From contig NC_016023.1 in NCBI RefSeq assembly GCF_000169195.2, forward strand, positions 3,038,001 through 3,102,000: a stretch of 64,000 nucleotides of DNA, read 5' to 3'. Made by a program: the position numbers and the translations under genes. The DNA comes from Heyndrickxia coagulans 36D1 (lineage in GTDB: Bacteria > Bacillota > Bacilli > Bacillales > Bacillaceae_C). Positions 9,894 through 26,477 of the stretch are shown here, in pieces. The notes beneath the pieces are model-generated. The model did no database searches and was not told the origin of the DNA. It saw only the letters and a list, made by a program, of their open reading frames with translations. Numbering within the stretch: the stretch's first letter is position 1; each line of letters starts with the position of its first letter.

Positions 9894-9939
9894 GCCCCCG
9901 GATCCACGTCCGGATAAAAAACAAAATGGAGGGGTACGA

Positions 9940-11061
9940 ATGCCGGAATTAAAACGGACGCCATTATATGATGTATACCGGAAATACGGTGCAAAAACGA
10001 CCGATTTCGGCGGCTGGGAACTGCCGGTGCAATTTTCGGGCATTAAAGCCGAACACGAAGCCGTCCGTACGCGGGCAGGCCTGTTTGATGTTTCGCATAT
10101 GGGCGAAATCCTGGTGGAGGGGCCTCAAAGCCTTGGCTTTCTTCAAAAAATGATGACGAACGATGTGTCCAAATTGAAGCCGGGTGCTGCCCAATATACC
10201 GCCATGTGCAATGAAGCCGGCGGCACAGTCGATGATTTGCTGGTTTACCAATTGGGCGAAAACCGGTATTGGCTCGTGGTGAATGCCGCCAATACGGAAA
10301 AAGATTATAAGTGGCTTGTTTCACACCGGACGGAGGATGTTTCCATAACGGACATCAGCGCATCGGTTGCCCAGCTCGCGCTCCAGGGGCCGCTTGCTAC
10401 GGAAGTGATGCAAAAACTTGCGCCAGAAGCGGATGTTTTCTCCATTCCAACGTTTTCATTTATTGAAAACGCAAAGGTTGCCGGTTGTAAAGTATTGCTT
10501 TCAAGAACCGGTTACACGGGCGAAGACGGCTTTGAAATTTACTGCCGCAGTGAAGATGCGCTGAAGCTGTGGGATGAGATATTGGCGAAAGGCCGGGAAA
10601 AAGGCGTTTTGCCGTGCGGGCTCGGAGCAAGGGATACGCTCCGCTTTGAAGCCGGGCTCTGTCTTTACGGCCAGGAGCTGGCGGAAGACATTTCCCCGCT
10701 TGAAGCCGGCATCGGTTTTGCTGTAAAGCTTAAGAAGGAAGCGGATTTTATCGGGAAGCAGGCGCTCCTTGCACAGAAAGCAGAAGGCCTGAAACGGCGC
10801 CTTGCTGGGATTGAAATGATCGGTCGCGGCATTCCGCGCCACGGATACAGCGTTTATGCAGGGGATGAGCGGATTGGCACGGTGACAACCGGGACACAGT
10901 CGCCGACTTTAAAGAAAAATATCGGTCTTGCCCTTTTGCGTGTACCGTGGGACGCACCCGGCACCGAAGTAGAAGTGGACGTCCGTTCCAAAAAGATTAA
11001 AGCCGTCGTTGTCCAAACACCGTTCTATAAAAAGCCAAAAAACGGAGGAGGGGAAAAGTGA
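9940..11061 (+). CDS. gcvT: Glycine cleavage system T-protein (aminomethyltransferase)
   Basis: A 373-residue tetrahydrofolate-dependent aminomethyltransferase: releases ammonia from the aminomethyl group on lipoyl H-protein and makes 5,10-methylene-THF. N-terminal [26 protein letters not shown], the folate-binding TNDVSKL and the catalytic Asp region [10 protein letters not shown] are all present; the C-terminal barrel ends with [24 protein letters not shown] 9940 has ATGGAGGGG before it. First gene of gcvT-gcvPA-gcvPB under the glycine riboswitch; gcvH is not in the window, as usual for Bacillus. Confidence 0.96.
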
Positions 11062-12410
11062 TGCATCGCTACCTGCCGATGACGGAAGAAGATAAACGTG
11101 AGATGCTGGATGCGATCGGAGTCCGAAGCGTCGGGGAACTGTTTTCCGACATTCCCGAAAAAGTGCGGTTTAAAGGGGATTACCGGATCAAAAAAGCAAA
11201 ATCGGAAACGGCGCTGTTAAAAGAACTGTCAGAACTTGCGGGGAAAAATGCCAATTTAAAAGAATATGCCTCTTTTTTGGGGGCGGGGGTTTACGACCAC
11301 TATATTCCAACGGTCGTGGACCATGTGATCTCAAGATCCGAATTTTATACGGCCTATACACCTTACCAGCCGGAAATCTCGCAAGGTGAACTGCAGGCTA
11401 TCTTTGAATTCCAGACGATGATATGCGAGCTGACCGGCATGGATGTGGCCAACTCCTCGATGTATGACGGCGGCACGTCCATGGCTGAAGCGGCCATGCT
11501 GGCGGCCGGGCAGATGAAGAGAAAGAAAGTATTGGTTTCAAAAGCTGTCCATCCGGAGTACCGGGCCGTTTTACATACTTATGCCAAGGGAAAAGGCATC
11601 ACCGTGGAAGAAATACCGCTCGCAGACGGCTGCACCGATCTGGAAGCAGCTAAAAAACAAATAGACGGCGGGACAGCTGCTGTCATCGTCCAGTACCCGA
11701 ACTTTTTCGGTTCGCTTGAACGGTTAAAAGAAATCGGCGAACTGGCCCATGCCGAAAAAGCTTTGTTTGTTGTATCCGCCAATCTGCTTGCCCTTGGGGT
11801 GCTTGCGCCGCCGGGGGATTTCGGCGCCGATATTACAACCGGCGATTGCCAGGTTTTCGGCATTCCAACTGCATTCGGCGGCCCGCATTGCGGCTACTTT
11901 GCTACAACGTCAAAACTAATGCGGAAAATGCCGGGGCGGCTCGTCGGCGAAACGGTCGACGAGAACGGGAAAAGGGGGTATGTGCTTACGCTCCAGGCGC
12001 GCGAACAGCATATCCGCCGCAATAAAGCGACGTCCAATATTTGCTCTAACCAGGCGCTCAATGCCCTTGCCGCATCGGTGGCCATGAGCGCCCTCGGCAA
12101 AAAAGGCGTAAAAGAAATGGCACTGGCCAATATGGCAAAAGCACAGTACGCAAAAAAGAAATTGGCGGAAAAAGGGTTTGAAATTCCGTTTTCGTCTCCT
12201 TTTTTCAATGAGTTTCCCGTGAAATTGCCAAAAAGTGTTCAAGAAGTAAATGAACATTTATTGCAGAAAAAAATCATCGGCGGTTATGATGTGAGCAAGG
12301 ATTACCCGGAATTTGCCGGTTGCATGCTCATTGCCGTGACGGAATTGCGGTCAAAAGAAGAAATTGACCAATTGGCTGAAGAAATGGGGGTCGTGTGTGA
12401 TGGCGAATGA
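11061..12410 (+). CDS. gcvPA: Glycine dehydrogenase (decarboxylating) subunit 1
   Basis: A 449-residue alpha subunit of the two-chain P-protein that decarboxylates glycine with PLP and passes the aminomethyl group to lipoyl-H. The start [16 protein letters not shown] and the segments [18 protein letters not shown] and GGPHCGYFA match the subunit 1 family; the PLP lysine is on subunit 2. ATG 11061 shares one base with the gcvT stop codon and follows GGAGGAGGGG. The next gene begins inside its 3' end. Length and motifs are normal. Confidence 0.96.
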
Positions 12411-13860
12411 AGGAATGCCGCTCATTTTTGAACGGTCCAAATCGGGCCGGATCGCGTACAGCTTGCCGGAAATGGACGTGCCGGAAGTGGACGCTTTTGA
12501 CATTTTTCCGCCTGAATACGTCCGCAAACAGGATGCGGAACTGCCGGAAGTGTCGGAACTGGATTTAATGCGGCACTACACAAAGCTGTCAGAAAACAAC
12601 CACGGCGTCGATTCCGGCTTTTACCCGCTCGGATCCTGCACGATGAAATACAATCCGAAAATCAATGAAACGGTTGCGCGCTTTCCGGGATTTGCCCATA
12701 TCCACCCGCTTCAAGATGAAAGCACCGTCCAGGGGGCGCTCGGGCTGATGTATGACTTGCAGGAACATTTAAAAGAGATTACCGGCATGGATGAGGTGAC
12801 CTTGCAGCCTGCTGCCGGCGCCCACGGGGAATGGACCGGGCTGATGCTGATCCGTGCTTTCCATGAAGCAAACGGGGATACAAAGCGGACAAAAGTGATC
12901 ATTCCCGACTCCGCCCACGGCACCAACCCGGCTTCCGCGTCCGTTGCCGGCTTCGAAACGGTCACTGTGAAGTCGAATGAAGAAGGGCTTGTCGATCTCG
13001 ACGACTTAAGAAAAATTGCCGGGGAAGATACCGCGGCGCTCATGCTTACCAATCCGAATACGCTCGGGCTGTTTGAAGCGCATATCCTTGAAATGGCGGA
13101 GATCATCCATGACGCGGGCGGCAAACTGTATTATGACGGTGCCAACTTGAATGCCGTGCTTGCGAAGGCGCGCCCGGGCGATATGGGATTCGATGTTGTC
13201 CACCTGAATCTTCATAAAACGTTCACAGGCCCCCACGGCGGCGGTGGCCCGGGTTCGGGTCCGGTCGGCGTCAAAAAAGAGCTGATCCCGTTTTTGCCGG
13301 TGCCGGTTGTTGCGAAAAAAGGCGACCGCTATGTGCTGGATGAAGACCGGCCGCAATCGATCGGCAGGGTAAAGCCGTTTTACGGCAATTTCGGCATCAA
13401 TGTCCGGGCCTATACGTATATCCGTTCAATGGGGCCGGATGGCTTGCGGGAAGTGACCGAGAATGCGGTGATCAATGCCAATTATATGATGAGGAAACTG
13501 GCGCCGTATTACGACCTGCCGTATGACCGCCATTGTAAACATGAATTTGTGTTAAGCGGCAGGCGCCAGAAAAAACTCGGGGTGCGGACGTTTGATATTG
13601 CCAAGCGGCTGCTTGATTTCGGCTTCCATCCGCCAACTGTGTATTTCCCGCTCAATGTGGAAGAGTGCATGATGATTGAGCCGACGGAAACAGAGTCGAA
13701 GGAAACGCTGGATGCCTTTATTGACGCGATGATCCAAATCGCAAAAGAAGCGGAGGAAAATCCGGAAATCGTCCAGGAAGCCCCGCATACAACCATTGTC
13801 AAACGCCTGGATGAAACGCGGGCGGCACGAAAACCGGTTTTGCGTTATGTGAAAAAATAA
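12400..13860 (+). CDS. gcvPB: Glycine dehydrogenase (decarboxylating) subunit 2
   Basis: A 486-residue beta subunit of P-protein. It carries the PLP-binding lysine in [19 protein letters not shown] and the conserved [10 protein letters not shown] and [10 protein letters not shown] segments. ATG 12400 lies 11 nt inside the end of gcvPA. Last gene of the operon, followed by a strong hairpin that also serves the convergent yqhL. Confidence 0.96.
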
Positions 13861-13864
13861 AAAG

Positions 13865-13896
13865 AAAAATGCCGCAGCATTGCCGCGGCATTTTTT
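13865..13896. terminator. Bidirectional terminator gcvPB / yqhL
   Basis: Stem AATGCCGC (13868-13875) / GCGGCATT (13885-13892) with A5 before and T6 after, between convergent genes. Confidence 0.88.
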
Positions 13897-14281
13897 ATTT
13901 CCCTGATTTGATTTTGCCTGTCCAGTTTTTAAAGCCGCCTTTCAACTGGTAAAGGTCGCGGCAGCCGTTTTTATAAAGCATTTCAGCGGCGCGCCCGGTG
14001 CGCGTCCCGTTCTGGCAATATAAATAAACCGGTTTATCGGTCCGGATCTCTTTTAATCTCATTTTCAGCTGAGACAGCGGAATATTGCGTGCGCCTAAAA
14101 TATGTCCGTTTGCAAATTCATTCGGTTCGCGCACATCAATGAGCTGCGCTTTGCGGTAACCCGCCTTGAATTCTTCTTCCGTCAAGCTTTTCAGGATTTT
14201 TTTCTGCCGGTAGTATCTGGCGAGAGTATATGCTACTACCGCAACAATAACAATGATGAGTGTGTACCACGATTGTGACAT
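13895..14281 (-). CDS. yqhL: Membrane-anchored rhodanese-like protein YqhL
   Basis: A 128-residue protein with one N-terminal membrane helix (residues 5-23) and a single rhodanese domain. The active-site loop is CQNGTRTGRA with the catalytic Cys, preceded by the LIDVREPNEFANGHI segment. Such proteins move sulfane sulfur, but the substrate is unknown. GGGGGC-type ribosome-binding sequence precedes the ATG at 14281. The same neighbour order gcvPB-yqhL-lipM occurs in B. subtilis. A link with lipoate assembly next door is only suggested by context. Confidence 0.9.
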   Translation of the reverse strand: MSQSWYTLIIVIVAVVAYTLARYYRQKKILKSLTEEEFKAGYRKAQLIDVREPNEFANGHILGARNIPLSQLKMRLKEIRTDKPVYLYCQNGTRTGRAAEMLYKNGCRDLYQLKGGFKNWTGKIKSGK

Positions 14282-14527
14282 CTTTCGTGCCCCCTTTCTT
14301 ACCTGATGCGCTATCTACTATTATATTCGTGTTGCGCTTCTGAATCAAAATCTTTTTTTAAGAAACATGTCACCGCTATTTTTTCCGTTTTTTCCGTCTG
14401 AAAAGCCCGTAACCGTTCTGTTTTAAGCACCAGCGGAAAAATCGGCACAAACTTGAGCGGGGCTTTGCCGTTTTTCGTCGTTTTTTGGTAAACTGGTAAA
14501 GTGATATTTTAAAGAAGAGGGGTACAT

Positions 14528-15364
14528 ATGGGAAAAGAAACCTGGTTGTTTGTAGATTCAGGCCACTGTCCGCCGTTTTTTAACATGGCGCTGGATGAGG
14601 CCCTGCTTGACTGGCACAGCAAAGGGGAGATCCCGCCAGCCATCCGCTTTTACGGCTGGGATCCGGCCACCCTTTCAATCGGGTATTTCCAGCGGGCAAA
14701 ACAGGAAATCGATCTCGAAGCGGTAAAACGATACGGGCTCGGTTTTGTCCGGCGACCGACAGGGGGAAGGGCTGTTTTGCACGAGCACGAGCTGACCTAC
14801 AGCGTGATCGTGTCGGAAGCGCATCCGGATATGCCGAAAACGGTCACGAAAGCCTACCGTGTCATTTCAGAGGGGCTTGTCAGGGGATTTCGTGCGCTCG
14901 GCCTGGAGGCGTATTTTGCAGTGCCGCGAACGGAAGCAGAACGGGAGGCACTAAGGTCTCCGCATTCTTCGGTTTGTTTTGATACGCCGAGCTGGTACGA
15001 ACTGGTCGTGGAAGGGCGAAAAGTCGCCGGCAGCGCACAGACGCGGCAGAAAGGCGTCATTTTGCAGCACGGCTCGATTTTGCTCGATATGGATGAGGAC
15101 AAGCTGTTCAGCCTGTTTAAATATCCGAATGACAGAGTGAGAGAAAGGATGCAGCGGAGTTTTAAGAAAAAGGCGGTTGCAATCAATGAGCTGCGCAACG
15201 TTCCCGTCACATACGAGGAGGCAAAAGAGGCTTTCCATAAGGGGTTTGAAGAAGGGCTCGGCATCCGGCTGGAACCGTACACGCTGACGCCGGCGCAACA
15301 GGCGTATGTCGAAGAACTGGCAGACAGAAGGTACCGGTCGGATGAATGGAATTTTAAGAGATAA
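14528..15364 (+). CDS. lipM: Octanoyl-[GcvH] protein N-octanoyltransferase LipM
   Basis: A 278-residue biotin/lipoate-protein-ligase-fold transferase that moves octanoate from acyl carrier protein to H-protein (GcvH), the first step of lipoate synthesis in Bacillus. The catalytic Cys is at residue 150 in [14 protein letters not shown], and the lysine motif KVAGSAQTR follows, matching LipM rather than LipL. The [18 protein letters not shown] segment is the acyl-binding loop. GAAGAGG precedes ATG 14528. Fits functionally with the glycine cleavage operon next door and the lipoyl enzyme bkdB at 58 kb. Confidence 0.95.
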
Positions 15365-15709
15365 ATGAACATTTGTTTTTTTAGCGGCCAGAGGTATGAT
15401 TTTTCGCTTTTTCCTTTAGTGCCGCGCTTTTTATGGCTGCTTTTTTGATGCAAGCGGCAAATTTTTTCGTTATGCCCGGGTTTGCCTGCTTTTTCGGGGT
15501 ATTTCTCAGATTTTCGGCATGGTTTATTCTTTTTTTCATTTGACAAAAAGAAAGAGGTTTGACCTAAACACAATATATGGTATATAAAAACAAAATGTCA
15601 ATACAATATCTAGTATTTTTGCTTGCAATTTTTCCCTGCGGTGTGCTATTTTAAAGGAGGCAGAACCACCAGAGAATTTGCATGGAGAAATAGAGAAGGA
15701 GTTGTCGTT
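15365..15709. other. Intergenic region upstream of nrdJ
   Basis: A 345-nt stretch without a convincing gene. The first 190 nt are T-rich on the plus strand and show no clear signal. The last 150 nt hold a promoter, two NrdR-like boxes and two ribosome-binding sequences, listed separately. A good AAAGGAGG at 15653-15660 has no start codon at a useful distance; the next ATG (15682) opens only Met-Glu-Lys-stop. Confidence 0.6.
15559..15616 (+). promoter_or_regulatory. nrdJ promoter with two NrdR-box-like sites
   Basis: TTGACC (15559-15564) and TATATA (15581-15586) form a good sigma-A promoter. Two 16-mers resembling the NrdR box (ACACWATATATWGTGT) lie here: ACACAATATATGGTAT at 15568-15583, inside the promoter spacer and -10, and ATACAATATCTAGTAT at 15601-15616. 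Their starts are 33 bp apart, about three helical turns, the arrangement known for the ATP/dATP-sensing repressor NrdR at ribonucleotide reductase promoters. Binding is inferred, not shown. Confidence 0.7.
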
Positions 15710-18268
15710 ATGTCTGTTGCTTCGACAGAAAAATTATGGAATGTGGAGAAGCTGAACGAAGATATCCGCTTATTTCCGCAGGTCCATCCGATTACACCGG
15801 ATATGAACATTACGTACAAAGGCGTTTCAAGGCTTGTCATGATTGACAGATACGCGTTTAAAGACACGGAAAAAGTCACATTGGGCAAGGGCGATTTTGT
15901 TGTCCTCACGATTAAAGAAGACCCGAAATTTCCGGCCAGGGGGCTCGGCGTCATTAAAGGGATCGACTGGGAAAAAAATGAAGCGGAAGTCTTAATTGAA
16001 GAAGATTACCGCCAGGCGCTGGAACACCCGGATGAAAGAGAAACGGGGGTCATCAAAAGGTCGCTTGATATCATTGAAAAGCCTCTTGAAGTCTATTACG
16101 AACAAATCGCAAAACGGAATGCAACCGGCTTAGCGGCAGTGGAAAAAACAGAAGAGAAACGAAATGAATGGTTTGAGAAGTTTTACAATGAACTGGTAAA
16201 CTTAAACTTTATCCCGGCAGGCCGCGTCCTCTACGGCGCCGGCTCGGAAACGGAAGTGACTTATTTTAATTGTTATGTGATGCCGTTTGTACCGGATTCA
16301 AGGGAAGGCATTTCCGAACACCGTAAACAGGTGATGGAAATTATGAGCCGCGGCGGCGGAGTTGGGACAAACGGTTCGACGCTGCGCCCGCGCAATACGC
16401 TGGCTAGAGGGGTCAACGGCAAATCAAGCGGCTCTGTCTCATGGCTCGATGACATCGCCAAACTTACGCACCTGGTCGAACAGGGTGGCAGTCGCAGGGG
16501 AGCGCAAATGATCATGCTGGCTGTCTGGCATCCGGACATTGTTGAATTTATCATTTCGAAAATGCAGAATCCGCGGATTTTGCGTTTCCTGATCGAAAAT
16601 ACGAACGATGAATGGATCCGCAAACTTGCCCACGACAAATTGAAATTCACGCCGCTCTCTGAAATGGAAAGGCAAATGTACCATGGGATTGTGAACTACA
16701 AACATATTCCGGGCCAAGGCGGCTTTACGGAAGAAGTCATGAAAGAGGCGGAAGAAAAACTGGAAACAGGCGGCCATTACACCGTTCATAATCCGGAATT
16801 TTTAACCGGCGCCAATATTTCCGTCTGCCTCACAAAAGAATTTATGGAAGCAGTTGAGCAAGACGCAGAATTCGAGCTGAAATTTCCGGATGTGGAAAAT
16901 TACAGCGAAGAAGAAATGCGCATATATAATGAAGAATGGCATAAGATCGGCGATGTGCGCGAATGGGAAAAACTTGGCCGCAAAGTGCGCGTCTATCGCA
17001 AAATCAAAGCAAAAGAACTTTGGAATTTGATTAACATCTGCGCGACTTACTCGGCGGAACCGGGCGTCTTCTTTATCGACAACGCCAACGACATGACAAA
17101 CGCAAAAGCATACGGCCAGAAAGTCGTCGCAACAAACCCTTGCGGAGAGCAACCCCTTGCGCCCTATTCCGTCTGCAACCTGGCAGCAGTCAATCTTGCA
17201 AAAATGGTCGACAAAGAAACGAAAGAAGTGCGCTGGGACCAATTGAAACAAACCGTCCGTACCGGCGTCCGCATGCAGGACAATGTCATTGACGCGACCC
17301 CGTACTTCCTGAAAGAAAACAAAAAACAGGCGCTCGGGGAACGGCGTGTCGGCCTTGGCGTTATGGGCTTAGCCGACCTTCTCATTTATATGGAAAAAGA
17401 ATACGGATCTGAAGAAGGCAATAAACTTGTCGACAAAGTGTTTGAAACAATCGCGACCGAAGCATACCGCGCATCCATTGAGATCGCAAAAGAAAAGGGG
17501 AGTTTCCCGTTTTTAACGGGTGAAACCGAAGAAGAGACAAACCGCCTGCGCCATGCATTCACGGAAACCGGCTATATGAAAAACATGCCGGAAGACATCC
17601 GCAAGGCGATTTTAAAACACGGCATCCGGAACTCCCATTTGCTAACCGTTGCACCAACCGGATCGACCGGCACCATGGTTGGCGTTTCCACTGGGCTGGA
17701 ACCGTATTTTTCCTTTTCCTATTTCCGCAGCGGGCGCCTCGGCAAATTTATCGAGGTCAATGCGGATATCGTCCAGGAGTATCTGGATAAGCACCCGGAA
17801 ACGGACAAAGACCATCTGCCAAACTGGTTTGTAACCGCGATGGATCTTGCACCGGAAGCCCATGCCGATGTCCAATGCGTTATCCAGCGCTGGGTGGACA
17901 GCTCGATTTCGAAAACGGTCAACGCCCCGCGCGGCTACACGGTTGAACAGGTGGAAAAAGTGTACGAACGCCTGTATAAGGGCGGCGCGAAAGGCGGAAC
18001 CGTTTATGTGGACGGGAGCCGGGATTCGCAAGTCCTGACATTGAAAGCAGAAGAACCACAGGAAGAAAAACGGGAAAAAGCGGAAGTGAAACACGCGAAA
18101 CAGCATGTCGTCCTGGTTGATACCATCCCGGATATCCGGTCAACAAACGTCACATACGGCAACGAAATTGGCGATACCTGCCCGATCTGCCGGAAAGGGA
18201 AAGTTAAGGAAATCGGCGGCTGCAATACATGCGATAACTGCGGCGCGCAATTAAAATGCGGCTTGTAA
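15710..18268 (+). CDS. nrdJ: Class II (adenosylcobalamin-dependent) ribonucleotide reductase
   Basis: An 852-residue oxygen-independent ribonucleotide reductase that reduces ribonucleotides using a B12-derived thiyl radical. The catalytic loop NPCGEQP gives Asn476, Cys478 and Glu480; APTGSTGTMVGVSTGLEPYF is a typical class II segment. The C-terminus has four Cys (CPIC...CNTCDNC, from residue 824), the redox/zinc tail of NrdJ. ATG 15710 follows GAGAAGGAG by 8 nt; an upstream TTG at 15623 has no site. It needs no partner subunit, consistent with its single-gene transcript (terminator follows). B. subtilis lacks this gene; it sits in the block inserted between lipM and yqhO. Confidence 0.95.
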   Translation: MSVASTEKLWNVEKLNEDIRLFPQVHPITPDMNITYKGVSRLVMIDRYAFKDTEKVTLGKGDFVVLTIKEDPKFPARGLGVIKGIDWEKNEAEVLIEEDYRQALEHPDERETGVIKRSLDIIEKPLEVYYEQIAKRNATGLAAVEKTEEKRNEWFEKFYNELVNLNFIPAGRVLYGAGSETEVTYFNCYVMPFVPDSREGISEHRKQVMEIMSRGGGVGTNGSTLRPRNTLARGVNGKSSGSVSWLDDIAKLTHLVEQGGSRRGAQMIMLAVWHPDIVEFIISKMQNPRILRFLIENTNDEWIRKLAHDKLKFTPLSEMERQMYHGIVNYKHIPGQGGFTEEVMKEAEEKLETGGHYTVHNPEFLTGANISVCLTKEFMEAVEQDAEFELKFPDVENYSEEEMRIYNEEWHKIGDVREWEKLGRKVRVYRKIKAKELWNLINICATYSAEPGVFFIDNANDMTNAKAYGQKVVATNPCGEQPLAPYSVCNLAAVNLAKMVDKETKEVRWDQLKQTVRTGVRMQDNVIDATPYFLKENKKQALGERRVGLGVMGLADLLIYMEKEYGSEEGNKLVDKVFETIATEAYRASIEIAKEKGSFPFLTGETEEETNRLRHAFTETGYMKNMPEDIRKAILKHGIRNSHLLTVAPTGSTGTMVGVSTGLEPYFSFSYFRSGRLGKFIEVNADIVQEYLDKHPETDKDHLPNWFVTAMDLAPEAHADVQCVIQRWVDSSISKTVNAPRGYTVEQVEKVYERLYKGGAKGGTVYVDGSRDSQVLTLKAEEPQEEKREKAEVKHAKQHVVLVDTIPDIRSTNVTYGNEIGDTCPICRKGKVKEIGGCNTCDNCGAQLKCGL

Positions 18269-18282
18269 ATGGAATAATGGAG

Positions 18283-18318
18283 AAAAAAACGGAGCAAAGT
18301 GATGCTCCGTTTTTTTTC
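18283..18318 (+). terminator. Terminator of nrdJ
   Basis: AAAAAACGGAGCA / TGCTCCGTTTTTTTT hairpin with a short loop, 15 nt after the nrdJ stop. Confidence 0.92.
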
Positions 18319-18380
18319 GCTTATAAAACACTGTTTAAAAGAATCATCAGAAAAATGGTTAAAAAATTTTAATTCGAATA

Positions 18381-18453
18381 TTGACAGCAAAAATGTCCGA
18401 TGCTACTATTTATATATCAAAAACAATATATAACGTGTTAAAAACGTTATATA
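18381..18453 (+). promoter_or_regulatory. Strong promoter plus perfect inverted-repeat operator (paa remnant)
   Basis: TTGACA (18381-18386), 17 nt, TACTAT (18404-18409): close to the sigma-A consensus. Beginning about 10 nt after the expected start site is a perfect inverted repeat, TATATAACGT (18427-18436) and ACGTTATATA (18444-18453) with a 7-nt spacer. Its position suits a repressor that blocks initiation or early elongation. PaaX, encoded 4.6 kb downstream, is the natural candidate, or a TetR-type PaaR; neither can be proven here. Confidence 0.65.
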
Positions 18454-18482
18454 AATTAAAATGATAAAAAGGAGAGCGGTTG

Positions 18483-18944
18483 ATGGACGAAACCGTTTAT
18501 GATGTGACGATTATCGGCGGCGGGCCTGTTGGTTTATTTGCGGCTTTTTACGGCGGCTTGCGGCAAATGAAAGTTAAAATCATTGAAAGCATGCCGCAAC
18601 TTGGCGGGCAGCTTGCCGCGCTTTACCCCGAAAAATACATTTATGATGTTGCGGGCATGCCAAAAGTGAAAGCGCAATCATTGGCCGACCGGTTAATTGA
18701 ACAAGCCATGCAATTTCATCCAACGATTGTGCTGAACGAGACGGTGCAGGATGTGAAGAAAACCGGCCGCGGCACTTTTCGCATCGAAACCGGATCAGGC
18801 CTCCATTTTTCAAAAACGGTCTTGATCACAGCCGGTATCGGGGCATGCCAGCCACGCCGGATCGAACACGAACAGGCATCGCAATACGAAAACAAAAACC
18901 TCCATTATTTTGTGAATGATATGCGCAAATTTAAGGGAGAAAAT
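18483..18944 (+). pseudogene. Ferredoxin-NADP reductase-like gene, 5' fragment
   Basis: The first 154 codons of a thioredoxin-reductase-like ferredoxin-NADP(+) reductase (YumC/YcgT type). The FAD motif GGGPVGLFAAFYGG, the segment IESMPQLGGQLAALYPEKYIYDVAG and TAGIGACQPRRIE are well kept. Homology stops after NLHYFVNDMRKFKGEN; the NADPH-binding half (roughly 180 residues) is missing. At about 18936-18945 the sequence passes into an enoyl-CoA hydratase gene in another frame, and translation continues 28 nonsense residues to a stop at 19031. In paa clusters such a reductase could supply electrons to the phenylacetyl-CoA epoxidase (inference). ATG 18483 has AAGGAG upstream. Confidence 0.85.
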
Positions 18945-19224
18945 CAGTGCACCAGAAGCGATGGCGTCCGGGCTATTAACGAAAGTGGTTCCAGCCTGCC
19001 ACTTGGAACAGGAAACGCAGCATTTTGCTGAAAGGCTTGCCGCGATGCCGACAAAAGCAATCGGCCTCGTGAAGCGGTATATGCAAAAAAGCTTTGAAAG
19101 CACATTGGATGAAATGCTCGAAAATGAAGCATACGCCCAGCAGATTGCAGGGCAAACAGCCGACCACAAGGAAGGGGTCCGGGCATTTTTTGAAAAAAGA
19201 AAACCGGAATACAAAGGCCATTAA
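18940..19224 (+). pseudogene. Enoyl-CoA hydratase (PaaG/PaaF-like), 3' fragment
   Basis: The last 94 codons of a crotonase-family enoyl-CoA hydratase: KISAPEAMASGLLTKVVP, then an HFAERLAAMPTKAIGLVKRYM helix and the C-terminal EGVRAFFEKRKPEYKGH typical of paa-type hydratases. The N-terminal 160-170 residues, including the oxyanion-hole and catalytic Glu segments, are gone. It is joined directly, out of frame, to the reductase fragment before it, with no start codon or ribosome-binding site of its own at the junction. This is the scar of a deletion that removed everything between the two genes. Confidence 0.88.
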
Positions 19225-19243
19225 ACAGAAAGGATGAACATGC

Positions 19244-20761
19244 ATGCCGATAACAAAAGAAGTAGCAGTATTTCCTGCTGAAATGAAACGGAGCGCGTAT
19301 AAAATGGTCATCAACGGAGAACCGGTGGATGCTGCAGGCGGCGAAACGTTTCACGTCTATAATCCTGCAACCGGCGAAGCCATCGCCACGGTGCCGAAAG
19401 CGGATGACGCGGATGTCTACCGGGCCGTTGAGGCGGCGCGCCATGCTTTTGAACACGGAAAATGGAGGCGCTATCCGGTTGGAAAACGGGCGCGCGTCCT
19501 GAACAAAATTGCCTCCATTATGCGCAGCCGTTTTGATGCGCTTGTTGAGATGGAAATTTTAAATACCGGAAAGACGATTGAAACGGCAAAGGGGCAGGTG
19601 ATGCAGGCCATTGAAGATTTCGAGTTTTTCGCGGGGGTGATTGTCGGACATCGCGGCGCTGTGAACCATGTTCCCGGCCAGTTCTTTAACTATACCCAAA
19701 AAGAACCGGTTGGGGTCGCTGCCCAGATCATTCCATGGAATTACCCGCTCATGATGGCTGCATGGAAAATTGCCCCGGCGATCGCAGCAGGATGTTCTGT
19801 TGTGGTAAAGCCGGCAAGCCTTACGCCGATTACAGCCATTTTACTGGCTGAAATCTGCCATGAGGCCGGTGTTCCGGCAGGCGTTGTGAACGTGATTACC
19901 GGGCCGGGGGCGAAAATCGGGTCTTATTTGGCGAAGCATGAAGGGGTCGATAAAATCGCCTTTACCGGAGAAACTTCCACCGGAAAAGAGATCATGGCAA
20001 ACGCTTCGGAAACATTGAAAAGAGTCACGCTGGAACTTGGCGGAAAATCTCCGAATCTCGTATTTCAGGATGCGGATCTCGATGCCGCCGTCAATGGTGC
20101 CCTGTACGGCATCTTCTATAATACCGGGCAATCGTGCGAAGCGAGATCCCGTATTTTCCTGCACGAAGACATTTACGATGCGTTTATGGAAAAATTTGTG
20201 GCCAAAACGAAAAAACTGGTGCTCGGTGATCCGTTTTCGCCTGCCTCGCATATCGGGGCGATCATCAGCAAAGGGCAGCTGGAAACCATCCACCGCTATG
20301 TCGAAGAAGCAAAGCAGGCCGGCGCAACCATCGTGACAGGCGGAAAACCGGCTAAAGTGGAAGGGTTTGAAAATGGTTACTGGTATGAACCGACCATTAT
20401 CACAAACGTCACCAATGACAGCAAAATTGCCCAGGAAGAAATTTTTGGGCCGGTCGTGGTGGTGATGCCTTTTAAAGAGGAGAAGGAAGCCGTAAAACTT
20501 GCAAATGCGACGAAGTACGGCCTGGCTTCAAGCATTTGGGCAAAGGACCAGGGCCTAATTAAGCGGGTCACAGACGGCATCCAGGCAGGCATTGTCATGG
20601 TCAACAGCCCGTTCTCCGCATTCCCGGGGACACCGTTCGGCGGATATAAACAATCCGGCTTCGGGCGCGAATTAAGCTTCGAATGCCTCGATTTATACAG
20701 TGAAACCAAGAGTGTACTCACTTATGCAGGGGCAAAACCTTTAAACCCGTTTCAGTTATAA
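19244..20761 (+). CDS. Aldehyde dehydrogenase (NAD(P)+-dependent)
   Basis: A 505-residue class I/II aldehyde dehydrogenase oxidising an aldehyde to the acid. Catalytic Cys298 (GQSCEAR), general-base Glu264 (LELGGKSPN), the PWNYP loop and cofactor residues are intact. Similarity is to phenylacetaldehyde- and betaine-aldehyde-type enzymes; the paa context makes phenylacetaldehyde to phenylacetate a reasonable guess but not proof. It lacks the hydratase domain of PaaZ, so it is not the ring-opening enzyme. The ATG lies 19 nt after the hydratase remnant, so it is probably read from the promoter at 18.38 kb. A hairpin follows it. Confidence 0.9.
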   Translation: MPITKEVAVFPAEMKRSAYKMVINGEPVDAAGGETFHVYNPATGEAIATVPKADDADVYRAVEAARHAFEHGKWRRYPVGKRARVLNKIASIMRSRFDALVEMEILNTGKTIETAKGQVMQAIEDFEFFAGVIVGHRGAVNHVPGQFFNYTQKEPVGVAAQIIPWNYPLMMAAWKIAPAIAAGCSVVVKPASLTPITAILLAEICHEAGVPAGVVNVITGPGAKIGSYLAKHEGVDKIAFTGETSTGKEIMANASETLKRVTLELGGKSPNLVFQDADLDAAVNGALYGIFYNTGQSCEARSRIFLHEDIYDAFMEKFVAKTKKLVLGDPFSPASHIGAIISKGQLETIHRYVEEAKQAGATIVTGGKPAKVEGFENGYWYEPTIITNVTNDSKIAQEEIFGPVVVVMPFKEEKEAVKLANATKYGLASSIWAKDQGLIKRVTDGIQAGIVMVNSPFSAFPGTPFGGYKQSGFGRELSFECLDLYSETKSVLTYAGAKPLNPFQL

Positions 20762-20835
20762 GCTTCCGGTCAAACAAAGGCACTCATTGCAGCACGGGCA
20801 GTGAAACGGGTATCCGGCAGGGCAGGATGGACAAA

Positions 20836-20880
20836 TAAGAAGCGAACGCATTCTTTCGGGATGGGTTCGCTTCTTTTAAA
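20836..20880 (+). terminator. Hairpin after the aldehyde dehydrogenase gene
   Basis: AAGAAGCGAAC / GTTCGCTTCTT stem with a 17-nt loop and T-run, ending 40 nt before the next gene. It suggests the genes from 20.9 kb on have their own promoter or are read through partially. Confidence 0.75.
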
Positions 20881-20919
20881 AATCGTCTAAAAAGATAGAA
20901 AATATAAAGAGGAAGTGGT

Positions 20920-21774
20920 ATGATGGCGGAAACATTGGTTGTCATTGGTTCAGGGGTAATGGGGCGCGGCATCGCTTATGCGGGCGCACTCGGCGGTTTC
21001 AAAGTCAGACTGGTAGATGTCCGGCCTGACATCTTGCATCAAGCGGAAAACAGGATTGAATCCGTCATGGAAAAAGGGCTTTCGAGGGGGAAAATCAACG
21101 GGGCAGACGCTGAAAGGATAAAGGCAAATATCGAATATACCGTTGATTTGCCGGTTGCAGCCGGTTGTGCAGATGTGATCATCGAGGCAGTGCCGGAAAA
21201 AACGGAAATAAAAAAAGAAGTGTTTGAAAAAATGGACAGGTTTGCGCCTGCCGGTTGCATCCTTGCGACCAATACATCAACGATGAGCCCGACTGAAATC
21301 GGTTCTTTTACTACCCGTCCCGCATCTGTCATTGCCATGCATTTTTTCAATCCGGTGCATAAAATGCCGCTTGTCGAGATCATCAGGGGGCTTGAAACAA
21401 GCGATGAAACGGTTCAACGGGCTGAAAAAATGGGGAAAGAAACGGTGATCGTGAATGAATTTCCCGGCTTTGTTACAAGCAGAATCAGCTGTTTAGTTGG
21501 AAACGAAGCATTCTACATGCTGCAGGAAGGGGTAGGGACACCAGAAGAAATCGATAAAGCCGTCAAGCTCGGCTTGAATTTTCCGATGGGGCCGTTTGAA
21601 CTGGCGGATTTGGTCGGTTTGGATGCAAGGCTAAACAATTTGCGCTACTTGCATGAAAAGCTTGGCGAAAAGTACCGGCCGGCGCCTTTACTGGAAAAGT
21701 ACGTGAAAGCGGGCAGGCTTGGGCGGAAAACAGGCAAGGGCGTATATGATTACACAACGGTTGAAGGAGAATGA
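20920..21774 (+). CDS. 3-hydroxyacyl-CoA dehydrogenase (PaaH/HbdA-like)
   Basis: A 284-residue NAD+-dependent 3-hydroxyacyl-CoA dehydrogenase. Rossmann motif VIGSGVMGRG is at the N-terminus; the catalytic His lies in MHFFNPVHKMPLVEII, with the NEFPGFVTSR segment and C-terminal helical domain (NFPMGPFELADLVGLD). In phenylacetate catabolism PaaH oxidises 3-hydroxyadipyl-CoA to 3-oxoadipyl-CoA; a butyryl- or fatty-acid-type role is equally possible from sequence alone. GAGGAAG precedes the double ATG at 20920. It is coupled to the thiolase gene downstream. Confidence 0.9.
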   Translation: MMAETLVVIGSGVMGRGIAYAGALGGFKVRLVDVRPDILHQAENRIESVMEKGLSRGKINGADAERIKANIEYTVDLPVAAGCADVIIEAVPEKTEIKKEVFEKMDRFAPAGCILATNTSTMSPTEIGSFTTRPASVIAMHFFNPVHKMPLVEIIRGLETSDETVQRAEKMGKETVIVNEFPGFVTSRISCLVGNEAFYMLQEGVGTPEEIDKAVKLGLNFPMGPFELADLVGLDARLNNLRYLHEKLGEKYRPAPLLEKYVKAGRLGRKTGKGVYDYTTVEGE

Positions 21775-21776
21775 AG

Positions 21777-22976
21777 ATGAGAGACGTCGTCATCGTTGAT
21801 GCGGTCAGAACACCGATGGGGCGATATAAAGGAGCGTTAAAATCAGTAAGGCCGGACGATCTGGCGGCAACCGCCATCAAGGCGTTGCTCGGCCGCCATC
21901 CCGAAGTTCCCTGGAACGAAATCGAAGAGGTCATTCTCGGAAATGCGAACGGCGCGGGCGAAGAAAACCGGAATGTCGCAAGAATGGCTGCACTGCTCGC
22001 CGGGCTTCCGGTCGAAACCGCCGGCACAACCGTTAACCGCTTATGCGGATCGGGCCTCGATGCTGTCAATATCGCAGTCAAAGCGATCATGGTTGGTGAC
22101 GGGGATATTTATATTGCCGGCGGAACGGAGAGCATGACAAGGGCGCCGTTTGTCATGGCAAAGCCGGAAAACGGCTACCCGAGGGGCAATTTGGAAATGT
22201 TTGATACAACGATCGGATGGAGATTTGTCAATGAAAAATTAAAGAAAATGTACGGGACAGACAGCATGCCGGAAACGGCGGAAAATGTCGCAAAGCAATT
22301 TCATATCAGCCGGAAAGCGCAGGATGCCTTTGCTTTTACGAGGCAAATGAGGGCGAAAGCGGCCATGGAAGCAAATCGCTTCCAAGATGAAATCGTGCCT
22401 GTCGTGTATACGAATCAAAAGGGGGAATCCGTGTCTGTCACCCAGGATGAACATCCCCGCCCCGATACTACGCCGGAAAAACTGGCAAGGCTAAAACCGC
22501 TTTTTACAGGAGGCACGGTGACGGCCGGAAATTCATCGGGCATCAATGACGGGGCGTCTGTCGTGCTATTGATGAGCGCTGAAAAAGCCGGCCAATTGGG
22601 CATCAAACCGATGGCCCGGTTTGTCGCCAGCGCAACGGCAGGATTGGAACCAAGGGTCATGGGGCTGGGACCGGTGTACGCAACGAGAAAAGCATTAAAG
22701 CGCGCCGGATTCAATATTTCGGATATTGATCTTGTCGAGTTAAACGAAGCCTTTGCTTCTCAGTCTATTGCATGCATCCGGCAGCTGGAACTGGACAGTG
22801 AGATTGTCAATGTAAACGGAGGGGCGATTGCTTTCGGACATCCATTGGGAGCAAGCGGCGCGAGAATTTTAACAACGCTCGTCCACGAGATGCAAAAGCG
22901 AAAGGCAAAACGGGGGCTCGCTACGATGTGCATCGGGGTGGGCCAGGGGATTGCAACCGTTATCGAAAAAATTTAA
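21777..22976 (+). CDS. Thiolase / 3-oxoadipyl-CoA thiolase-like acyltransferase
   Basis: A 399-residue thiolase. The acylated Cys90 (NRLCGSGLDAV), the GGAIAFGHPLGASGAR His motif and the C-terminal MCIGVGQG with the second catalytic Cys are present. Length and the ESMTRAPFVMAKP segment resemble PaaJ/PcaF, which cleave 3-oxoadipyl-CoA to succinyl-CoA and acetyl-CoA. AAGGAG is 7 nt before ATG 21777; the in-frame ATG 21771 overlaps the preceding stop but is only 1 nt from that site. Together with the dehydrogenase upstream it represents the lower part of the phenylacetate pathway. Confidence 0.9.
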   Translation: MRDVVIVDAVRTPMGRYKGALKSVRPDDLAATAIKALLGRHPEVPWNEIEEVILGNANGAGEENRNVARMAALLAGLPVETAGTTVNRLCGSGLDAVNIAVKAIMVGDGDIYIAGGTESMTRAPFVMAKPENGYPRGNLEMFDTTIGWRFVNEKLKKMYGTDSMPETAENVAKQFHISRKAQDAFAFTRQMRAKAAMEANRFQDEIVPVVYTNQKGESVSVTQDEHPRPDTTPEKLARLKPLFTGGTVTAGNSSGINDGASVVLLMSAEKAGQLGIKPMARFVASATAGLEPRVMGLGPVYATRKALKRAGFNISDIDLVELNEAFASQSIACIRQLELDSEIVNVNGGAIAFGHPLGASGARILTTLVHEMQKRKAKRGLATMCIGVGQGIATVIEKI

Positions 22977-23018
22977 AATGGGGGAAAGAGATCTTTGGCA
23001 GAGACAAGGAGTTTATAA

Positions 23019-23912
23019 ATGGAAAAAACGTTAAATACGCGTTCGATGATTTTTACGCTTTATGGCGATTACATCCGCCATTACGGAAGCGAAATTTGGA
23101 TTGGCAGTTTAATCAAATTGCTGGAAGCGTTCGGCCACCATGAACAATCTGTCCGTGCTGCCATTTCCCGCATGAGCAAACAAGGCTGGGTGGAAAGCCG
23201 CAAAGAAGGAAACAACAGTTACTATTCTTTGACTGAACGCGGTGTAAAACGGATGAATGAGGCTGCCGGGCGGATTTTTAAACTGAACCCGGGCAAATGG
23301 GACGGCAAATGGCGGTTTTTTCTGTATACGATACCCGAAAAAAAGCGGAACATCAGGGATGAACTGAGAAAAGAACTGATGTGGAGCGGCTTCGGCCTCC
23401 TGTTAAACAGTGTCTGGCTTACGCCGAATGATTTGCTGGATGAAATGAAAGGGATTATCGACAAGTACGGGATCAATGAATATGTCAAAATCTTCACTGC
23501 CGAAAATGTATGGGGCAAATCCGATAAAGAACTTGTACAGGAATTATGGGATATTGATTATATGAACGACCGGTATGAAGATTTTATGGCCCATTACCGG
23601 GAAAAATATGAAAGCGTCAAAGAAAAGATGAAAAGAGGGGAAATGACGAATCAGGACTGCTTTGTCGAACGGACGATGCTTGTCCATAATTACCGGAAAC
23701 TATTGTTTGTGGATCCCGGTTTGCCGGAAGAACTGCTGCCGGAAAAATGGAAAGGGGAGGAAGCAGCCGCGCTTTTCCGGGACTATTACCGAATCCTTGC
23801 CAAACCGGCAAATGATTTTTTTGAAGATATTTTTTCTGAAGGATACGACACTTTTCAGAAAAGCAAGCATTATGATGTGTTTGAGCATCCGCTTATAACT
23901 GAAAAAGCATGA
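23019..23912 (+). CDS. paaX: PaaX family transcriptional repressor
   Basis: A 297-residue PaaX regulator. PaaX represses phenylacetate catabolic genes and releases DNA on binding phenylacetyl-CoA. The N-terminal winged helix shows RSMIFTLYGDYIRHYG, SVRAAISRMSKQGWVESRKEGNNSYYSLTERG; the central domain has KWRFFLYTIPEKKR and a LNSVWLTPND segment; the C-terminal part includes FVERTMLVHNYRKLLFVDPGLP, all family features. ATG 23019 follows AAGGAG. It lies downstream of the thiolase in the same direction. With its epoxidase targets gone from here, it may be a left-over or may still control the remaining genes. Confidence 0.95.
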   Translation: MEKTLNTRSMIFTLYGDYIRHYGSEIWIGSLIKLLEAFGHHEQSVRAAISRMSKQGWVESRKEGNNSYYSLTERGVKRMNEAAGRIFKLNPGKWDGKWRFFLYTIPEKKRNIRDELRKELMWSGFGLLLNSVWLTPNDLLDEMKGIIDKYGINEYVKIFTAENVWGKSDKELVQELWDIDYMNDRYEDFMAHYREKYESVKEKMKRGEMTNQDCFVERTMLVHNYRKLLFVDPGLPEELLPEKWKGEEAAALFRDYYRILAKPANDFFEDIFSEGYDTFQKSKHYDVFEHPLITEKA

Positions 23913-23942
23913 CGAGATCCGAGCGCAGAAAGGAGCGATCAA

Positions 23943-24893
23943 GTGGCAAATCCGGTAACTGAAATGTTGGGCATCAAATTTCCGGTTTTTCAAGGCGGGA
24001 TGGGAAATATCAGTGATCCTGCCCTTGCTGCAAGTGTTTCCAACGCCGGCGGGCTGGGAACGATTGGCGCCGGGACGCTGCCCGTAGCGGAAATCGAAAA
24101 AAGAATGGATAAAATGCGCAGCCTGGCCGCTTCCCCCTGCTGCGTCAATATTGCCATTTCGGTTCATCCAAACGCGGACGAAGTCATCCGGTTAGCCATT
24201 GAAAAAAAGATTCCAGTTGTTTCCCTATCTGCCGGCAACCCTTCGAAATATATCCCGGTTTTGCATCAAAACGGCATAAAAGTGATTTGTGTCTCCTCCA
24301 CTGTCCGCCAGGCGAAAAAAGCGGAAATAGCGGGGGCTGATATCCTTGTATGCGAAGGATACGAAGCAGCAGGAATCAATGCTGCCAATGAAAGCACGAC
24401 AATGGTGCTCGTTCCGCAGATTGTAAAAGCGGTCAACATTCCGGTTGTCGCAGCGGGAGGGATTGCGGACGGCAAAGGTTTGGCGGCGGCACTTTCGCTC
24501 GGGGCATACGGCGTGCAAATGGGGACGAGATTCATCGCAACAAAAGAAGCGCAGTTTCACCCTGTATATAAGAAGGCTGTAATGGAAGCAACAGATGAAG
24601 CGACGATGATCATCGGCAGACGATACCAAATGATGCGCAGAGTGTTCAAAAATGCGTACGCAGACTATCTCCGCGAACTGGAAGAAAGCGGCGCGGATCC
24701 GGACCGCTTTAAAGCGCTGACAAGCGAAGCCCATCATGAAAGGGGAGCGCTTCAAGGCGATATGGAGCACGGTTTTATAAACGGGGGCCAAATTTCCGGC
24801 CTTATTGAGGACTGCCCGTCTGTTGCCCAATTATTAGAAAAAATGGTAAAGGAAGCGCAGGCTGTGCTAACCAGGAGCATGGCACGGTTATAG
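23943..24893 (+). CDS. Nitronate monooxygenase / FabK-like FMN enzyme (YrpB type)
   Basis: A 316-residue TIM-barrel flavoprotein of the 2-nitropropane dioxygenase family. Visible landmarks: PVFQGGMGNISDPALAASVSNAGGLG at the start, the EGYEAAGIN segment, and VVAAGGIADGKGLAAALSLGAYGVQMGTRF, which holds the FMN phosphate. Members oxidise alkyl nitronates; the FabK-like relatives reduce enoyl-ACP, and the two are hard to separate by eye. GTG 23943 follows AAAGGAG. It ends the accessory block and lies 30 nt after paaX, so may be co-transcribed. No direct role in phenylacetate breakdown is established. Confidence 0.85.
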   Translation: MANPVTEMLGIKFPVFQGGMGNISDPALAASVSNAGGLGTIGAGTLPVAEIEKRMDKMRSLAASPCCVNIAISVHPNADEVIRLAIEKKIPVVSLSAGNPSKYIPVLHQNGIKVICVSSTVRQAKKAEIAGADILVCEGYEAAGINAANESTTMVLVPQIVKAVNIPVVAAGGIADGKGLAAALSLGAYGVQMGTRFIATKEAQFHPVYKKAVMEATDEATMIIGRRYQMMRRVFKNAYADYLRELEESGADPDRFKALTSEAHHERGALQGDMEHGFINGGQISGLIEDCPSVAQLLEKMVKEAQAVLTRSMARL

Positions 24894-25051
24894 TCCCGTA
24901 TGAACGCTTTGTTCTAATTCCTCTCCTTGTGCGCTAAAATAATAAAAAAGCATTTTTCATCTTTCGCTTAAGCAGGGCATCCTGCCAACATTCCGTATCT
25001 TTTCTGACCAACAAACCGAAACGCCCGATGCGAATCCAAGGGTGGGTTTCC

Positions 25052-25936
25052 ATGGAAATTGATGCGGTTTTTTCCGGTGGAGGCATAAAAGGCCTTGCGC
25101 TCATCGGGGCATTGGAAGTATTGGAAAAAAGGGGATTTACGTTTAAACGGCTGGCCGGCACAAGCGTCGGTTCCGTTTTTGCAGGGCTGTTGGCTGCAGG
25201 CTATACAAGCGGCGAAATGAAGCAAATGCTTGCGGAAACAGACGCGGCCGCGTTCCTTGACGAGCGGAAAACGCTGCTGCCGGTGCCGTTTGCGAAATGG
25301 CTGCTGCTGTATTGGCGGCTCGGGCTGTACAGGGGCGCCGCGTTTGAGGAATGGATCGGGGAAAAACTCGCCTCTAAAGGGGTGTACACGTTCAAAGATG
25401 TTCCAAAAGGCTCCCTTTATTTCACGGCATCCGATCTTACCCATAACCGGCTTGTTGTATTGCCTGATGACCTGGAGCGTTACGGGGTGCCATGGCAAAC
25501 CTTTCCGGTAGCAAAGGCCATCCGGATGAGCGCGAGCATCCCGTATTTTTTCGAACCGGTACGGCTGCGCTCGCTGGAAGGCACGAGCCTTATTGCAGAC
25601 GGTGGCGTTTTAAGCAATTTTCCGATGTGGCTGTTTGTCAAACCGGAAGAAAAAAAGGCGCGGCCGGTGCTTGGCATTACGCTAAGCTCGAAACAATCGG
25701 AAGAGCCAAATGCGGAGATAAAAAATGCGATCCAGCTGTTCGATGCCTTGTTCAAGACGATGAAAGACGCCCATGATGCCCGCTATATTTCAAGAAAACT
25801 GGAAAAGGACATTATTTTTATCGCTGCAGATGGCGTACCTGCCACAGATTTTCAGCTTTCCGCCGAACAAAAAGCAGCCTTAATCGAGGCGGGCCGGAAA
25901 AAAACAGAAACGTTTCTGAAAACGTGGTCCTATTAA
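25052..25936 (+). CDS. yqhO: Patatin-like phospholipase YqhO
   Basis: A 294-residue patatin-fold serine hydrolase. The oxyanion-hole GGGIKG, nucleophile elbow GTSVGS and catalytic Asp in DGG (LIADGGVLSNFP) are all present, giving a Ser-Asp dyad for acyl-ester hydrolysis, probably of phospholipids. No signal peptide; a hydrophobic patch around KWLLLYWRLGLY may touch membrane. ATG 25052 follows GGGTGGG; an upstream ATG at 25028 lacks a site. Position before yqhP-yqhQ matches B. subtilis yqhO. Confidence 0.9.
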   Translation: MEIDAVFSGGGIKGLALIGALEVLEKRGFTFKRLAGTSVGSVFAGLLAAGYTSGEMKQMLAETDAAAFLDERKTLLPVPFAKWLLLYWRLGLYRGAAFEEWIGEKLASKGVYTFKDVPKGSLYFTASDLTHNRLVVLPDDLERYGVPWQTFPVAKAIRMSASIPYFFEPVRLRSLEGTSLIADGGVLSNFPMWLFVKPEEKKARPVLGITLSSKQSEEPNAEIKNAIQLFDALFKTMKDAHDARYISRKLEKDIIFIAADGVPATDFQLSAEQKAALIEAGRKKTETFLKTWSY

Positions 25937-25942
25937 TTAAAA

Positions 25943-25978
25943 AAGAATCGAGCTTAGTAGACAGCTCGATTTTTCTTT
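25943..25978. terminator. Bidirectional terminator yqhO / yqhP
   Basis: AATCGAGC / GCTCGATT stem with a TTAGTAGACA loop and T-run; A-run upstream for the other strand. The stop codon of yqhP is inside this hairpin loop. Confidence 0.85.
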
Positions 25979-26319
25979 TTGCCCTTTTTGCCTTCAATCA
26001 CGGTTAACTGGACATTGGATTTTTTGCGCAGCGGCCGTTTTGAAAATTTAACCGTGTGGACAGTATGGACCTTCATATTCCGTTTTTTCATTCTTTTTCT
26101 GGATTTGCGGGCGGCTTTTAAAAATGCTTTTTGCTCCTGGTTGGAAACATTCGTGCTTCTCTTGAGCAAGAAACGCATGCCAGCCAAAAGCACTGCCGCA
26201 AAAATGAAGGCTATCAAAACCCTTTTTAAGAATACAACCGGCTCATGAAACAAAGAGGAACCCAGGCCAAGCAGGGCCAAAAGAAAAATGCCGGCGATGA
26301 TCCATTGACGCGTCTTCAA
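25954..26319 (-). CDS. yqhP: YqhP-like membrane protein (SA1362 family)
   Basis: A 121-residue protein with two membrane helices (about residues 3-20 and 28-48) and a very basic C-terminal tail (KAARKSRKRMKKR, GKKGKKKNRA). Unknown function. The open frame begins at ATG 26337, but its first codons read ATG AGG AGG TGG, which is itself a consensus ribosome-binding sequence; the natural start is therefore the TTG at 26319 (or 26322), 5-8 nt after AGGAGGTG. Family assignment follows the position between yqhO and yqhQ and the membrane/basic layout. Confidence 0.75.
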   Translation of the reverse strand: MKTRQWIIAGIFLLALLGLGSSLFHEPVVFLKRVLIAFIFAAVLLAGMRFLLKRSTNVSNQEQKAFLKAARKSRKRMKKRNMKVHTVHTVKFSKRPLRKKSNVQLTVIEGKKGKKKNRAVY

Positions 26320-26477
26320 CAAAAGCCACCTCCTCATGTTTTCCTAACCATTTTTTCCATCATTCTATCAGTTTATACGGTTCCGGCCGTTTTTATTTTG
26401 AGGTTGGTTCCCCGTCGCACAAACAAGCTTGTGATAGTAAATGTATTCCCATGCACTGGAAACTTCAAACGCCGTTT

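Follow-up and report, generated by a model that had tools for sequence, protein, structure and literature searches.

The 42-base element at positions 18412 to 18453 (plus strand) of the window, the whole stretch of 64,000 nucleotides that was analysed, is assigned with high confidence as the predicted operator of the PaaX repressor encoded at 23019 to 23912. The assignment was deduced from comparison of PaaX loci across genomes. The element recurs before phenylacetate genes in many Bacillus-like bacteria carrying PaaX, and the 42 bases that stand before such genes here are therefore very probably the DNA sequence recognized by PaaX. The original prediction had proposed an inverted repeat within the element as the DNA target of a Firmicutes PaaX; comparative genomics supports this proposal, with the amendment that the operator is deduced to be 42 bp long and to include an extra half-site at 18412 to 18418.

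The inverted repeat itself is present as first described, a perfect 10+10 bp repeat at 18427 to 18453 with exactly complementary arms, TATATAACGT and ACGTTATATA, flanking a 7-nt spacer (GTTAAAA). It can also be read as 13+1+13 with 92% pairing. Just 5' of it, as also claimed, is a sigma-A-type promoter, TTGACA-N17-TACTAT, on the plus strand at 18381 to 18409. The promoter was assigned by consensus match only, with TTGACA at 18381 to 18386, TACTAT at 18404 to 18409, a spacer of 17 and a TG ahead of the -10 box. The measured gap between the end of TACTAT and the start of the repeat was 17 nt. An RBS-like AGGAGA, recognized from the sequence, follows at 18470 to 18475 on the plus strand.

Taken alone, the repeat is only mildly unlikely. 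The intergenic stretch 18269 to 18482 gave a 10+10 repeat with a 3- to 12-nt spacer in 14 of 1000 Markov shuffles, and 22 repeats of the 10+10 kind were counted in the window, several of them overlapping at one place and most others being G+C-rich hairpins by eye. The shuffles leave some room for a chance AT-rich inverted repeat, but recurrence at PaaX loci, held-out sets included, contradicts chance and reduces this explanation to a negligible probability. It is because of this recurrence that the repeat is considered significant.

Recurrence of the element and its three half-sites

PaaX relatives (E ≤1e-60, divergent ones included) were detected in 179 of 397 genomes of the order. The 74 loci of the order that were compared comprised 14 from the same family and 60 picked among the PaaX matches listed, mostly one per genus, each taking in up to 20 kb around PaaX, with some shortened by contig ends. 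The loci were selected for PaaX, which all of them therefore share, and the counts of loci given below are not independent events because the loci share ancestry. When all DNA of the 74 loci was tallied, TGAAGC-N9-GCTTCA was the most frequent 6-mer inverted repeat (16/74) and the second was TAACGT-N7-ACGTTA (15/74), which is the core of the 10+10 repeat of the window. With coding DNA masked and spacers of 0 to 15 allowed, TAACGT-N7-ACGTTA ranked first, again at 15 of the 74 loci, and was followed by shifted forms of itself. It was absent from five mononucleotide shuffles, in which the best word reached 4 loci.

A 27-bp position weight matrix was grown from the 74 loci with the window left out. 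It detected a site at FPR ≤0.02 in 63 of these 74 loci, on which it had been trained, and no site at that rate in the other 11. The score of the window was 26.6, above all 750 null maxima. Outside the training set, 19 of 22 loci from other orders (L256 and L257 among them) had a site at FPR ≤0.02, with 17 scoring at least 18, and the corresponding counts for 18 loci with divergent PaaX were 8 and 3. The nulls were first-order Markov sequences for this matrix, the scan of other orders, the spacing counts, the 42-bp model and the 0-35 spacer tally.

When the sites were aligned on the repeat, a conserved ATATAAC(A/G) was found to begin exactly 15 nt 5' of it. Its mean number of matches, out of 8, was 6.69 at paaA (45 sites), 5.83 at the thioesterase (18 sites) and 4.73 at paaK (11 sites), and 6.45 at paaA in other orders (11 sites), against an all-offset mean of 2.6 to 2.9. 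This left half-site (L) was not seen at 13 ABC-transporter sites or at 5 paaX and 3 EthD sites of other orders, and a mirrored half-site on the right flank, looked for in the aligned sites, was weak or absent. Together with the right arm, L forms the pair TATRAC-N27-GTYATA, which was found in 50 of the 74 loci; the next spacing was found in 8, and the best in five shuffles in 2. At ≤1 mismatch, the N27 pair was present in 69 of the 74 loci, 17 of the 22 from other orders and 2 of the 18 divergent ones. The exact pair in the 22 loci of other orders was spaced by N16 in 7, by N0 in 6 and by N27 in only 4, and no spacing of TATRAC and GTYATA reached 3 in the 18 divergent-PaaX loci. An intergenic tally over the 74 loci with spacers of 0 to 35 was topped by TATAAC-N27-GTTATA at 29 loci, compared with 15 for TAACGT-N7-ACGTTA and 5 for the best word in each of three Markov-shuffled sets. 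Several loci with a low score from the 27-bp matrix were found to retain L and the right half-site (R).

A 42-bp model was trained on one half of the 74 loci, split at random and not by genus, and at a 1% null rate it found sites in 36/37 and 35/37 held-out loci, giving 71 of 74 with 3 failing. It also detected sites in 19 of the 22 other-order loci and in 1/18 and 2/18 of the divergent-PaaX loci. A similar repeat in other PaaX-containing Firmicutes, its absence having been named beforehand as the refuting outcome, was present in 63/74 loci of the order by the 27-bp matrix, in 71/74 by the 42-bp hold-out and in 19/22 loci of other orders. Within the intergenic part of window positions 8001 to 28000, the best match of both half-trained models was 18412 to 18453, and null maxima as high were obtained in 1/222 and 0/222 cases.

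The predicted operator is therefore wider than the 10+10 repeat, with three half-sites in 42 bp, of which the first reading took in two. In the window, L is ATATATC at 18412 to 18418 (plus strand), one base off the family consensus ATATRAC and beginning 15 nt 5' of the repeat. The middle half-site (M), TATATAACGT at 18427 to 18436 (plus strand), is the left arm of the repeat, and R, ACGTTATATA at 18444 to 18453 (minus strand), is the right arm, whose GTTATA closes the outer pair with L. This pair reads TATATC-N27-GTTATA, so that the 27-nt separation is present and the exact wide pattern is absent from the window owing to the one deviating base in L.

Across whole genomes, the exact pattern ATATRAC-N27-GTYATAT was present in 71 of 179 genomes with PaaX versus 19 of 218 without. 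The reversed control pattern was found in 25/179 and 20/218, respectively, and the 19/218 thus corresponds to about the reversed-control rate. Among 75 matches listed for the wide pattern, 53 lay no farther than 16 kb from paaX or paaA; of the others, 9 were elsewhere in genomes with PaaX and 13 in genomes lacking it. For TAACGT-N7-ACGTTA, among 75 matches listed, 24 were no more than 15 kb from paaX, 21 were elsewhere in genomes with a PaaX position on record, and 30 were in other genomes. All 167 genomes sampled that had PaaA also had PaaX, and a control genome with PaaA and without PaaX was found nowhere among the 397 genomes of the order.

Predicted target genes, promoters and proposed repression

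The 99 sites scoring at least 18, the window included, were neighbored by paaA (45), an FlK-type thioesterase gene (18), paaK (15) and the gene of an ABC substrate-binding protein (13), where one site may count for two divergent genes. Genes of the relatives were named by reading translations and by BLAST to those, and the reference genes were then checked. Reference PaaA, PaaB, PaaC and PaaD exceeded the NCBIfam cut-offs, reference PaaK reached 631 against a cut-off of 646, and the reference thioesterase, dehydrogenase and transporter had Pfam support only. The thioesterase gene at these sites is of the FlK type, has 132 codons and stands ahead of an amino-acid dehydrogenase gene.

In the subset of sites that have a strong promoter match, overlap of the -10 box with the left edge of the repeat was observed at 39/42 paaA, 17/17 thioesterase and 9/12 ABC sites, and at all 11 paaK sites the repeat began 22 to 30 nt past the -10 box, the distance in the window being 17 nt. 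Such a promoter match was found for 132 of 1200 control genes, with scattered offsets. The -10 score gains from the AT-rich edge of the repeat and the -35 score does not. Location at a promoter of paa genes, as expected of a PaaX operator in general, was observed. PaaX would be expected to mask the -10 box at most of its targets and, in the window and at paaK, to cover the start and the early transcribed region.

These positions also bear on a function of the repeat as an RNA hairpin in the 5' leader, acting in stability or attenuation. The repeat of the window does lie 3' of the predicted start, and its 10-bp stem is stable (z −3.39, with 0/200 shuffles as stable). However, for the majority of the paaA, thioesterase and ABC sites that have a strong promoter match, the repeat is overlapped by the -10 box and its left arm would therefore not be transcribed, which argues against a conserved RNA hairpin function. 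Furthermore, the upstream half-site at its fixed distance sits outside the hairpin, no Rfam match reached the gathering score, and no T-run follows the repeat. An RNA hairpin is deemed very improbable on these data. The candidate of an intrinsic terminator or other RNA element was rejected, as the repeat is not a G+C-rich stem with a T-run and matched no Rfam family at the gathering score.

For an operator read by PaaX, the following mode of action is proposed. Without phenylacetyl-CoA, PaaX would bind the half-sites L (ATATATC), M (TATATAACGT) and R (ACGTTATATA) through its winged helices, presumably occupying all three, and from half-sites just 3' of the -10 box it would block initiation or promoter clearance. 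Phenylacetyl-CoA, the ligand suggested by analogy with the E. coli system, would release PaaX. Since paaX appears to share the operon and would be co-transcribed, repression would be autoregulatory. The predicted regulon comprises paaA, paaK, uptake genes and the thioesterase/amino-acid-dehydrogenase operon, and knowledge of the operator would make it possible to annotate regulation across a large bacterial order from sequence.

Downstream of paaX in L131, L141, L183 and other loci, the same predicted operator was observed ahead of the FlK-type thioesterase gene, followed by a dehydrogenase gene of the Glu/Leu/Phe/Val type. The thioesterase and dehydrogenase genes of L131 are at 720 to 1112 and 1 to 675, respectively, on the minus strand, and L141 also has a dehydrogenase E1 gene. 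PaaX may thus control an amino-acid-to-arylacetyl-CoA route too in Bacilli. ABC transporter genes beside the paa genes often carry this predicted operator as well, for example at L131:1335-4213 on the minus strand. The nearest model for the L131 binding protein is a tryptophan-binding one, matched below its cut-off, and uptake of an aromatic substrate by transporters of this type is possible.

PaaX groups and known phenylacetate regulators

Among the computational evidence, recognition of the site by PaaX itself is best supported by the covariation of site and PaaX group. The divergent group, 18 loci (L238 to L255) chosen by lower identity, is mixed, with L253 and L255 carrying sites of the main type. 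Its own tally gave ATTATG-N24-CATAAT at 6/18 loci, against 3 for the best in six shuffles. At ≤1 mismatch this word was present in 12/18 divergent loci, 4/74 loci of the order and 0/22 of other orders, and at ≤2 mismatches in 15/18, 27/74 and 4/22, respectively. One genome, G029, has both PaaX types, and each locus (L063 and L238) shows only its own site type at ≤1 mismatch. L159 shows both site types because it overlaps L239, from the same genome. The divergent PaaX genes adjoin paaA-like genes, and many are accompanied by a site of their own, which reads ATTATG-N24-CRTAAT and contains ACGA in the middle.

The site of E. coli PaaX is given as TGATTC(N27)GAATCA in a review (PMC9493321), which describes the structure of the PaaX-operator complex as not elucidated. 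The literature search gave no paper on PaaX beyond this review for the structure deposited as PDB 8a39. It also gave no described PaaX site in Bacillota, most subscription papers lying outside its coverage. The E. coli operator resembles the present one in its PaaX-family regulator, in its place next to paa promoters and in outer half-sites 27 nt apart. The two differ in the half-site, TGATTC there and TATRAC here, as the original prediction had anticipated in calling the site unlike that of E. coli, and the present site was not filed as the E. coli operator type for this reason (TATRAC, not TGATTC/GAATCA). A middle half-site is conserved at a fixed position here and is not established for the E. 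coli operator. The repressors are distantly related, the 8a39 chain matching the PaaX of the window with E 3e-47. Between paaZ and paaA of E. coli K-12 we found TGATTC-N27-GAATCG, together with an N28 pair that scores equally (11/12 each), and the DNA upstream of K-12 paaX had no clean N27 pair, with 4 mismatches at best. The agreement in N27 is suggestive rather than proof, since the limits of the arms were partly chosen and N27 is not dominant in other orders.

It is tentatively suggested, at somewhat less than even probability, that PaaX repressors from Bacillota to E. coli share a three-half-site operator with outer half-sites about three helical turns apart, in which the half-site sequence (TATRAC, ATTATG or TGATTC) switches with the PaaX group. 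This is weakened by the exact N27 pair being a minority among the loci of other orders. If it is true, PaaX would occupy a long fixed scaffold in more than a single simple dimer, and a readable PaaX-DNA recognition code would be gained along with a predicted phenylacetate and aromatic amino-acid regulon across Bacilli. PaaX-DNA recognition becomes directly testable with an operator that is conserved, has many natural variants and differs in its half-sites between PaaX groups.

The repeat could instead be the operator of another phenylacetate regulator, for example of a TetR-type PaaR whose gene lies in another part of the genome. The site of Thermus thermophilus PaaR (TTHA0973), AACnAACGTTnGTT, has the same AACGTT core (PMC6651687) and likewise serves control of the phenylacetate pathway, and PaaR has been reported in several Bacilli (PMC13186573). 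Thermus PaaR is, however, a TetR-type protein (PMC9493321) whose site is a compact 14-bp palindrome; the site described here is longer and differently spaced, and no TetR gene lies near the loci examined. In none of the 6 genomes examined, that of the window included, did a TetR_N match occur at up to 20 kb from the paa locus or, where the contig was shorter, up to its end (the G256 contig is 13.8 kb); TetR genes unlinked to the sites do exist. Also against PaaR are the different half-site of the divergent PaaX group and the retention of PaaX and operator in the window despite loss of PaaA/PaaC-family genes. Another regulator is thus considered unlikely. PaaR of Burkholderia cenocepacia, again of the TetR type, has a 15-bp site, ACCGACCGGTCGGTT (PMC9493321), which also lies at paa promoters but differs from the present site in sequence and in regulator type.

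The decayed paa operon of the window

Upstream of the operator region is a ribonucleotide reductase gene (15623 to 18268), followed on the plus strand at 18283 to 18316 by a terminator-like hairpin ending in a T-run, which was obtained by inverted-repeat search and was not listed by the terminator scan. The gene after the repeat is broken, as first claimed. An N-terminal remnant resembling pyridine-nucleotide/ferredoxin-NADP reductase (18483 to 18940) is the first gene 3' of the operator and passes out of frame into what remains of an enoyl-CoA hydratase, its C-terminal third (18931 to 19224; PF00378 positions 156-250 of 251), with the junction between about 18931 and 18980. Further downstream, and like the remnants on the plus strand, are genes for an aldehyde dehydrogenase (19244 to 20761; PF00171), a PaaH-like 3-hydroxyacyl-CoA dehydrogenase (20920 to 21774), a PaaJ-like thiolase (21771 to 22976), PaaX (23019 to 23912) and a nitronate monooxygenase-family protein (23943 to 24893).

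The paaX gene is intact and lies 4.6 kb downstream of the repeat. Its product has 297 aa with three PaaX domains (PF07848, PF20803 and PF08223, all far over cut-off) and scored 321.9 bits against NCBIfam equivalog TIGR02277 (cut-off 264.55). Linkage to phenylacetate genes is seen in the hydratase remnant and in the PaaH-like and PaaJ-like genes, and a PaaA relative is contained in 73 of the 74 loci of PaaX relatives in the order.

The missing part was deduced from two relatives. In L170 an intact reductase gene opens the paa operon, and between it and the matching hydratase lie genes for ferredoxin, paaK, paaA-D, an EthD-domain gene and one hydratase gene. In L225, from another order, the operator is followed by the intact reductase gene, which again opens the paa operon, and then by paaA, with paaA-D, an EthD-domain gene and one hydratase gene between reductase and matching hydratase. 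All of these intervening genes are missing from the window. The simplest reading would be that one deletion of several kb of the paa operon made the reductase/hydratase junction.

No PaaA/PaaC-family gene was found in the strain's own genome by a search that matched in 4 of 14 control genomes, and the operator therefore survives on a decayed pathway. A 60-aa PaaK probe, one without positive control, gave no match in this genome, and four other members of the genus that were searched gave no PaaX match. The possibility that the element is a relic, a former PaaX operator that this strain has ceased to bind or to need, gains from the absence of these pathway genes, from the broken first gene and from the L half-site being one base off; it is the likeliest of the alternatives but is judged improbable. 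Against it, the M and R arms are perfect complements, and PaaX is full length with a DNA-binding region near the consensus of its relatives. The predicted operator has outlived the loss of much of the pathway, and present-day control of the remaining genes, the ongoing regulation suggested by the original prediction, is likely but not certain in this strain.

In the genome of the strain (3.55 Mb), the complete repeat pattern occurs once, and allowing ≤3 mismatches adds one place, L002 (G000:C1:2112375-2115401). This was dropped as an operator, being coding DNA at a cas4/cas1 junction. L002 holds Cas3-like and Cas4 genes followed by a 63-residue N-terminal piece of Cas1 that covers positions 1-61 of 283 of the Cas1 model, and the CRISPR locus of the genome seems to be interrupted there.
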